In this document: positions 6,444 through 42,393 of the stretch, piece by piece
Layout: each line of letters begins with the position of its first letter
How positions within the stretch are numbered: position 1 is the stretch's first letter
Assembly: GCF_003148775.1 (NCBI RefSeq)
Contig: NZ_QGGW01000005.1
Coordinates: forward strand, 62,001-126,000
Length of the DNA: 64,000 nucleotides
Origin: Roseicyclus mahoneyensis
GTDB lineage: Bacteria; Pseudomonadota; Alphaproteobacteria; Rhodobacterales; Rhodobacteraceae
Direction: 5' to 3'
The notes under the pieces: model-generated
Seen by the model: the letters and a program-made list of their open reading frames with translations, nothing else
What the model was told of the DNA's origin: nothing
Database searches by the model: none
Made by a program: the position numbers and the translations under genes

Positions 6444-6589
6444 TAGAGTGGGCTTCCACTCTGCTACGCCGCACAAAACCCACACCCTACACCGCGCCCC
6501 GTAGCAACCGTAGGGTGGGGTTCCACCCCACCATGGTGGGCAAAATGCCCACCCTACATCCCATCCCGTAGGCCGGGCTTCAGCCCGGC
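6444..6589. repeat. tandem palindromic repeats (GTAGGGTGGG family)
   Basis: Three stem-loop modules lie in a row. Two 47-base copies (6444-6490 and 6511-6557) align without gaps, beginning TAGAGTGGG or TAGGGTGGG and ending CACCCTAC. In the second copy the outer arms GTAGGGTGGG (6510-6519) and CCCACCCTAC (6548-6557) enclose two smaller hairpins (6514-6532 and 6535-6553). The third module is GCCGGGC/GCCCGGC at 6572-6589. No coding sequence is seen in 6404-6654. The pattern resembles REP/MITE-like elements and sits at the right edge of the accessory cassette. Confidence 0.7.
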
Positions 6590-6654
6590 ACCGTAGAGAG
6601 GCTGCAACCCACCATCCCCGCCAACCACCCGCGCACACGGTGGCTTCCCCCACC

Positions 6655-7249: not shown

Positions 7250-7672
7250 TCAATCCGGGTCGGGGGACCCCCGCAGGCTCTTCACCACGCCGCGCACCTT
7301 CTTCTCCTTGATCCGCCGTTCCACCGACCCCTTGGTCGGGCGCGTCGCCCGGCGGGCCTTGGGCACGACCAGCGCCGCGCGGACCAGTTCCGCCAGCCGT
7401 TCCCGCGCGATCTCGCGGTTGCGGGGCTGGCTGCGCGTCTCTTCGACAAAGATCACCACCGCGCCCTCCTTGGTCCAGCGCCGCCCGGCCAGCCGCCGCA
7501 AGCGCCCCTTGACCGGGCCCGGCAGGTTGGGGGACCGTTCCGCCTCGAACCGCAACTCGACCGCCGTCGACACCTTGTTCACATTCTGCCCGCCGGGGCC
7601 GGAGGAGCGGACGAACTGCTCCGTCAGCTCCCAATCGGCAAGCGTGATCTGGTCGGTGATGGTCAGGGGCAT
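7250..7672 (-). CDS. arfB: alternative ribosome-rescue factor B (peptidyl-tRNA hydrolase ArfB/YaeJ)
   Basis: ArfB (140 residues) enters stalled ribosomes on mRNAs without a stop codon and hydrolyses peptidyl-tRNA. The class I release-factor motif GPGGQNVNKVST has GGQ at residues 27-29. The basic C-terminal tail (KGSVERRIKEKKVR) is the part that inserts into the empty mRNA channel. There is no recognisable Shine-Dalgarno before the ATG at 7670-7672. Upstream on the same strand come three GTGTAC repeats, a strong terminator and a structured RNA with a short ORF, so regulation through the leader is plausible. The window also carries smpB, half of the main rescue system. Confidence 0.94.
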   Translation of the reverse strand: MPLTITDQITLADWELTEQFVRSSGPGGQNVNKVSTAVELRFEAERSPNLPGPVKGRLRRLAGRRWTKEGAVVIFVEETRSQPRNREIARERLAELVRAALVVPKARRATRPTKGSVERRIKEKKVRGVVKSLRGSPDPD

Positions 7673-7682
7673 GTGACTGGCG

Positions 7683-7710
7683 GTGTACGGGGTGTGTACG
7701 CCCTGTGTAC
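7683..7710. repeat. three GTGTAC direct repeats with 11-bp phasing upstream of arfB
   Basis: GTGTAC occurs at 7683-7688, 7694-7699 and 7705-7710, exactly 11 bases apart and therefore on nearly the same DNA face. The block ends about 10 bases upstream of the arfB start. It sits between that start and the terminator at 7737-7761. It could be an operator or an RNA element; no regulator is evident. Confidence 0.5.
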
Positions 7711-7736
7711 GCGTTGTGCGGCCTATTCGGCCAACG

Positions 7737-7761
7737 AAAAAGGGCCACCCGAAGGCGGCCC
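7737..7761 (-). terminator. strong intrinsic terminator upstream of arfB
   Basis: On the minus strand the RNA reads GGGCCGCC, loop TTCG, GGTGGCCC, then five T residues (stem 7742-7761, T-run 7737-7741). The 8-bp stem with a UUCG tetraloop and U-tract is a textbook Rho-independent terminator. It ends the transcript coming from yhhQ or the leader RNA about 65 bases before arfB. Confidence 0.85.
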
Positions 7762-7774
7762 TTTCGAAAGATCA

Positions 7775-7914
7775 GGAGGCGGTCCGGTTAGGACGTTAAC
7801 CACCTTGCGTGGGGCGAAATCCCCGAGGATTGCCTCAGGTCCGCACCTCCCAAGCTGTCCCGACACCGTTCTCCAATACCCTTCTAGACACTGGATCACC
7901 TCCTTCCTGCTTGG
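7775..7914 (-). ncRNA. candidate structured leader or small RNA upstream of arfB
   Basis: The minus-strand RNA between yhhQ and the terminator folds. A 7-bp closing stem pairs GGAGGTG (about 7844-7850) with CGCCTCC (7775-7781). Inside are CCTGAGG/CCTCGGG (7822-7839) and GGTTA/TAACC (7786-7801). A competing hairpin GGGG/CCCC (7811-7824) shares bases 7822-7824 with the first, so the two cannot form together. The 18-codon ORF at 7835-7891 ends inside the first hairpin. A TTGACA lies at 7951-7956 on the minus strand, but no good -10 is visible. It may be an arfB attenuator or an independent sRNA. The folding was done by eye. Confidence 0.42.
7835..7891 (-). CDS. 18-residue small ORF with perfect extended Shine-Dalgarno
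   Basis: A GTG at 7889-7891 opens a frame encoding MSRRVLENGVGTAWEVRT. Its ribosome site AAGGAGGTGATCC (7893-7905) is complementary to the 16S 3' end over at least 12 bases at ideal spacing, stronger than at almost any gene here. Codons 3-6 are AGA AGG GTA TTG, all unusual in this G+C-rich genome, where Arg is mostly CGC or CGG. A strong entry site followed by tandem rare Arg codons, and a stop codon inside a hairpin, are features of leader peptides. Its expression and the link to arfB downstream are inferred. Confidence 0.5.
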   Translation of the reverse strand: MSRRVLENGVGTAWEVRT

Positions 7915-42198: not shown

Positions 42199-42205
42199 TT
42201 CTCTT

Positions 42206-42299
42206 GAGAGGTTGGCGCGGGCAGGCGCCTCGCCAACCTGGTCAGGTCCGGAAGGAAGCAGCCACAACGAGCCCCGCTTGGGTCGATGTCCAGCCTCTC
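42206..42299 (+). ncRNA. ffs: 4.5S / small SRP RNA
   Basis: The RNA of the signal recognition particle, which binds Ffh and targets nascent membrane proteins. The conserved domain IV loop GGTCAGGTCCGGAAGGAAGC (42239-42258) with the following AGCCACAACGAG is unmistakable. The 5' end GAGAGG pairs with the 3' CCTCTC, giving about 94 nucleotides. Location just upstream of dnaX is the common arrangement. Confidence 0.95.
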
Positions 42300-42393
42300 A
42301 CTATCCCCGGCTTCCAGTGCAAGCTTGCCTTGCGATGCGAAGCGCGCTTCAGCCCGGCAGGGTCTTTTGGCAGACTCGTTCGCCAAAGCCCCC

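Follow-up and report, generated by a model that had tools for sequence, protein, structure and literature searches.

A probable rreR-type small mRNA gene with a hyper-extended Shine-Dalgarno sequence between yhhQ and arfB of Roseicyclus mahoneyensis

The locus between yhhQ and arfB

The window (the whole stretch of DNA analyzed, 64,000 nucleotides from Roseicyclus mahoneyensis) holds a compact minus-strand gene between yhhQ (8586-7963) and arfB (7672-7250), also on the minus strand. Both neighbors of this small-mRNA element were confirmed by Pfam (PF02592 for yhhQ and PF00472 for arfB, an ArfB-type RF-1 domain protein). The free-standing element extends over 7922-7737 of the minus strand (about 185 nt) and comprises, in order, a predicted promoter, a Shine-Dalgarno sequence (SD), an 18-codon ORF with a GTG start, a structured region, and a terminator. 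A covariance model built from 24 aligned loci, the relatives being found by DNA search, matches 265 of 296 genomes (one per genus, with the family taken as Rhodobacteraceae), six of them weakly (best E above 1e-5), in a search run without unrelated control genomes. A strict sequence pattern is found in 171 of the 296 genomes, and its backward control gave none among the matches listed. The 154 loci compared below (12 from the genus of the window) are the better-scoring among the matches listed, so weak copies are under-represented. yhhQ lies upstream in 147 of them, with 55-80 nt between its stop codon and the SD in 135 of the 147, while arfB is a frequent but dispensable downstream neighbor (129/154). 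These sequence comparisons confirm that the element is real, widely conserved, and far beyond chance.

The predicted promoter (7956-7929, minus strand) is composed of TTGACA at 7956-7951, a 16-nt spacer, and CACCTT at 7934-7929 with a TG upstream, and it would place the start of transcription at about 7922. The pattern TTGAC-N13..15-TGnnAnnnT occurs in 99 of the 154 upstream regions, in the space between the yhhQ stop codon and the SD; the reversed strings occur in none (0/154). Among 120 of the 154 loci aligned on a TTGACA-like box (and picked for it, which biases the columns of the box itself), the TG is conserved at 95 and 92%, the A at 92%, and the T at 92%. The -10 box of the element is far from consensus, and a simple scan limited to the strict sigma-70 pattern did not flag the promoter. 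A preliminary description of the locus had missed this conserved promoter as well as the helix, described below, that AGA-AGG can form with the segment preceding the terminator. An exact copy of TGTGGATAA, which we take to be the DnaA box motif, sits on the predicted transcription start (7929-7921, minus strand); 12 of the 154 loci have such an exact box in the 60 nt ahead of the SD, and none (0/154) has one in the 700 nt further upstream.

The hyper-extended SD (7908-7890, minus strand) is predicted to form a 19-bp duplex, with two G-U pairs, with the 3' tail of 16S rRNA. The stretch AAGGAGGTGATCCAG (7905-7891) gives a perfect Watson-Crick run of 15 nt against the tail GGCUGGAUCACCUCCUUUCU, whose sequence was taken from the relatives G286, G290, and G324, as the genome of the window itself gave no 16S end. 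The predicted duplex in the window reaches -35.2 kcal/mol (segment including the start codon). For 48 long ORFs of the window, with the best of the alternative starts taken and the start codon left out of the segment, the strongest value is -19.7 kcal/mol, the median is -12.0 kcal/mol, and the longest run is 7 nt. Over the 154 loci, the median duplex without the start codon is -29.7 kcal/mol, the median cost of opening the SD is 9.95 kcal/mol, and the net after pairing with the tail is -18.8 kcal/mol; the perfect run has at least 16 nt in 103 of these loci. The sequence AAGGAGGTGATCC is found once in the 4.03-Mb assembly. No co-change of the SD and the tail was seen in the 16S ends obtained (3 of 14 genomes), the SD of G290 departing from the consensus with a tail of the usual sequence. 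In three Azospirillum loci (L242, L268, L277) the same SD stands ahead of an ORF of 57-59 codons, which by eye has a signal-peptide-like start. The SD pattern is also present in MAGs labelled Gemmatimonadetes, Nitrospinota, and Acidobacteriaceae (L204, L259, L315), reflecting either a binning error or real spread.

At the other end of the element, the intrinsic terminator (7765-7737, minus strand) shows 97.3% and 98.7% of cells paired and two-sided changes at 10 of 11 pairs. It is absent from the output of a simple terminator scan, probably because much of the U-run pairs with the A's of the stem. No purine-rich site precedes the arfB ATG in the window, and a purine 4-mer stands ahead of the arfB start in 22 of the 129 loci, with none in 107. 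The gap between the terminator and arfB contains three GTACAC copies with an 11-base spacing (7710-7683, minus strand); at least two GTRCAC copies are found in this gap in 12 of the 129 loci, and the repeats are possibly an operator of arfB. Beyond arfB lies a ParD/ParE toxin-antitoxin pair (7199-6658, minus strand; ParD is present in only some of 30 loci searched), followed beyond parE by GC-rich palindromic repeats seen by eye (6500-6620). In another genus, the arfB of one locus (L007) is followed by three additional incomplete copies of the ArfB C-terminal part (2-962). The window also carries a bacterial small SRP RNA at 42205-42303.

The reading frame and the conserved pairings

The ORF (VSRRVLENGVGTAWEVRT, rreR type; 7891-7835, minus strand) has a GTG start and a TGA stop. 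Exactly 18 codons are found in 151 of the 154 loci, the window included, and the start is GTG in 153 and TTG in one. Codon 19 is TGA in 62 loci, TAG in 56, and TAA in 33 (CCC, CGG, and CAA in the three exceptional loci). Independent variation at the two purines of the stop would yield TGG about 23 times. It was never seen, which is strong evidence, at the level of sequence, that termination at this point is under selection. The length is not absolute: the ORF runs to 23 codons in the diverged copy L338 and to 27 in L339; two other diverged copies (L335, L337) encode unrelated peptides, again of 18 codons.

The entropy by codon position is 0.47/0.51/0.63 for codons 2-12 and 1.33/1.42/1.10 for codons 13-18, i.e., there is little or no excess at the third position, and in the last six codons positions 1 and 2 are as variable as position 3. 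Synonymous sites are fixed: among the 151 ORFs (the 3/154 without 18 codons were left out of the codon table) codon 3 is AGA in 136, that is in all 136 Arg codons there, codon 7 is GAG in 150 of 150 Glu codons, and codon 12 is ACA in 151 of 151, though ACA makes up only 11% of the Thr codons in the window ORFs. From the flat entropy, the fixed synonymous sites, and the unrelated peptides of the diverged copies, we infer stronger selection on the frame and the RNA than on the peptide. The same three observations make it unlikely that this is a small protein gene with a functional 18-residue product, in which the RNA structure would only tune translation, even if such a gene would account for the conserved frame, start, and stop and for the N-terminal half VSRxxLExGVGT, which recurs across loci. 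Residues 2, 3, 8, 14, 17, and 18 score above the shuffled mean, so some selection on the peptide may persist.

The element of the window folds with a predicted energy of -79.5 kcal/mol (z -2.63; 1 of 200 shuffles is equally stable). In 100 aligned loci, 95.7% of cells pair, compared with 89.9% in shuffled sequences and at most 59.0% when the sequences are slid. These 100 loci were picked from the 154 to favor distinct 5' types, the alignment was fitted to the structure of the covariance model, which had no helix at codons 3-4, and the covariation counts are inflated by related sequences.

Helix P0 joins the SD core (7903-7897) with an anti-SD-like segment (7781-7775, minus strand) and is present in the predicted fold of the window. 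It is paired in 99.6% of cells (100 sequences), with one-sided variation in 4 of 7 pairs and two-sided variation in none; thus, its support is the near-complete pairing and not compensation. The nearly invariant segment resembles the anti-SD seeds that some other sRNAs use, as would be expected of a trans-acting sRNA whose CCUCC blocks the ribosome sites of other mRNAs and whose ORF is secondary. We regard this reading as improbable, given that the segment is accounted for by its pairing with the SD of the element itself and that a pure sRNA would not need an ORF of fixed length. Hairpin P1 surrounds the start codon (7895-7888 with 7879-7872, minus strand; 96.4% of cells paired, two-sided changes at 2 of 8 pairs), and hairpin P3 contains the stop codon (7839-7833 with 7828-7822, minus strand). 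The latter is part of the predicted fold, has 89% of cells paired, and shows two-sided changes at 6 of 7 aligned pairs. In the aligned sequences, conserved helices overlie the start region.

A further, long-range helix, first spotted by eye, connects GAAGG at codons 3-4 (7884-7880) with CTTTC before the terminator (7770-7766, minus strand). It crosses P0, and according to the fold models it would be an alternative or pseudoknotted state relative to P0. It has 83.3% of cells paired and changes on both sides in 5 of 5 pairs (reached by 26 of 500 shuffles), with a covariation score of 0.342 vs 0.195 ± 0.015 in shuffled sequences (reached by 0 of 500). When the SD is held open in the window fold, 7884-7880 pair with 7770-7766; over the 154 loci, codons 3-4 pair more than 40 nt past the stop in 119 folds with an open SD vs 9 unconstrained folds. 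The anchored comparison leaves out six of the 154 loci, which lack the CCTCC anchor, and also L183. The energy of the codon 3-4 duplex is -5.53 kcal/mol for own partners vs -5.28 kcal/mol (35 of 2000 permutations are as low), which is a modest and noisy test; when each 5' type is represented once, 12 of 5000 permutations are as low, and for an upstream control segment 1651 of 2000. The positional counts are clearer than the free duplex energies. In copies from other alphaproteobacteria, the strongest pairing of codons 2-8 with the region ahead of the terminator scores 14.6 vs 11.9 ± 0.3 in swaps (0 of 5000), in a test that is not position-specific and covers 58 distinct 5' types, three of which look Rhodobacterales-type. 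This comparison drew on 120 named loci from a longer list; an ORF of 10-40 codons was lacking in 5 of 141 loci and a terminator in 15 of 108. As the codon 3-4 helix crosses P0 and forms when the SD is open, two mutually exclusive pairing states are plausible in these models; a pseudoknot holding both helices is possible.

On the whole, the anatomy given in the preliminary description (a perfect SD of at least 12 bases, an 18-codon ORF, a stop codon inside a hairpin, a terminator, and arfB without a ribosome site) stands, and the fold is supported by covariation in the alignment of relatives. Its statement that codons 3-6 are rare agrees with the usage in the window ORFs (n = 48, in percent of synonymous codons) for AGA (2.7%), AGG (4.3%), and GTA (5.3%), whereas TTG is only mildly rare (13.4%). 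As to the conservation of the AGA-AGG pair, AGA is kept at codon 3 as given above, but AGG occurs as codon 4 in only 6 of the 151 ORFs.

Distribution of the element and its relation to arfB

In 25 of the 154 loci, yhhQ is located upstream and no arfB is present in the examined flank (1424-1614 bases after the ORF in 24 loci and 415 in L175), with the element intact. The next ORFs of these loci, which are plain ORFs and some perhaps shadows, differ from one another in an all-against-all blastp, save two groups of four, and in 14 of the 25 the first one is on the opposite strand. Among the 31 genomes without a match to the covariance model, 20 were examined. Diverged copies were found directly after yhhQ in L335, L337, and L338, a similar SD further down in L339, and copies elsewhere in L333 and L334; in L346 and L340 yhhQ is followed by arfB and no such SD was seen between them. 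At least 120 named loci carry an element-like pattern, and 80 of them were examined for flanking genes. Sixty belong to types other than that of the Rhodobacterales, and 58 of these show neither yhhQ nor arfB in the sequence examined. The remaining two, from Hyphomonadaceae (L227, L270), have arfB upstream in the opposite orientation, at distances of about 0.2 and 1.0 kb. A blastn search of plasmid and phage collections gave no match to the element.

The preliminary description favored transcription attenuation of arfB, in which stalling of ribosomes at AGA-AGG would refold the RNA and let the polymerase read into arfB. Whatever the frequent arfB downstream, its missing ribosome site, and the covarying terminator in between may suggest, this reading is very improbable in view of the loci with no arfB in the examined flank and with differing, often inverted next ORFs, the two genomes that keep yhhQ-arfB without such an SD, the rarity of AGG at codon 4, and the absence of both genes around most copies of other types. 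Judged from gene order and codons, cis regulation of arfB is not a function of this family of elements. The fallback put forward in the same description, an independent sRNA or small-protein gene, is supported, and the element has a conserved promoter and a covarying terminator of its own.

Proposed function and relation to known small RNAs

The element is likely an rreR-type gene for a small mRNA that stands by itself, with its own promoter and terminator, two pairing states, and a frame kept over the peptide. Transcription would begin at its own promoter after yhhQ and end at its own terminator, and the RNA may then switch between two states, a proposal that rests on energy models and crossing pairs. 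In the first state, the SD would be held in P0 with the anti-SD-like segment and the start codon in P1. In the second, the free SD would hold a 30S subunit by its tail, with codons 3-4 tied to the segment before the terminator. The outcome, as is reported for rreB, would be strong 30S binding and weak translation. A translating ribosome would have to open the fold and would stop at a fixed place in P3; we think that translation of the frame, which would set the shape and lifetime of the RNA, matters more than the peptide.

As a tentative extension, for which the odds are clearly lower, the element may belong to an RNA found throughout the Alphaproteobacteria that catches 30S subunits through the whole 16S tail and keeps a frame of near-fixed length in each lineage for translation and termination, not for the peptide. 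Such an RNA might serve as a sensor of ribosome availability or tail integrity, toggling two conserved pairings. The gene occurs in 265 of the 296 genera sampled from one family and has relatives in further groups of alphaproteobacteria; it can grip the whole 16S tail and yet is seemingly not kept for its peptide. With the alignment and the named pairs, mutations can be designed to probe directly what an RNA of this kind senses or controls.

Leader-peptide attenuators of the trpL type combine a short ORF, alternative helices, and a terminator. The element differs from them in having no constant regulated gene downstream (25 of the 154 loci are without arfB in the examined flank) and no conserved regulatory codons, as the counts for AGG at codon 4 indicate.

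The sequence features fit the rreB/rreR small mRNAs of Hahn et al. (2017, RNA Biol 14:1353-1363). These small mRNAs reportedly have an unusually long SD, a GTG-started ORF, strong 30S binding, a stability that depends on ribosomes, and weak translation; the reported ORF lengths are 14 aa for rreB, in Bradyrhizobiaceae, and 18 aa for rreR, in the Rhodobacter/Roseobacter lineage. By these traits, we take the element to be of the rreR type: it has 18 codons, and eight loci from Bradyrhizobium or Bradyrhizobiaceae encode 14. The SD complementarity of at least 16 nt that reportedly marks the group is attained in the window only if G-U pairs count. A literature search of partial coverage for rreB and rreR returned nothing relevant. 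New beyond what is reported of rreB/rreR would be the mutually exclusive conserved pairings at the ribosome site, the class-wide counterpart, and a selection that favors frame and length over the peptide.

Pos19, a small coding RNA with an ORF, is described from Rhodobacter sphaeroides, in a related genus (PMC5036791). The Caulobacter sRNA CC2171 appears as a family name in two papers (PMC5596092, PMC11701678). The corresponding Rfam model (RF01867) matches the window with 30 bits (E 6.7e-5), below its gathering score of 75, and is above the cut-off in 0 of 41 genomes of the family. Of 142 genomes sampled from the class, 31 give a match at E up to 0.01, five of them over the cut-off. Among 14 well-known control genomes, two match at this E value (Caulobacter vibrioides and Deinobacterium chartae, one over the cut-off) and four, some of them unrelated, at E up to 0.1; thus, weak matches alone prove little. 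The element and RF01867 share the same SD block, a helix in which early codons pair with the stretch ahead of the terminator, and the terminator, with model positions 1-159 matched. This helix is found here and over the 58 types, about 55 of which appear to come from elsewhere. By these sequence features the two appear related. They differ in that the Rfam entry is an sRNA, whereas the element has an 18-codon ORF and would tie this entry to a translated gene.
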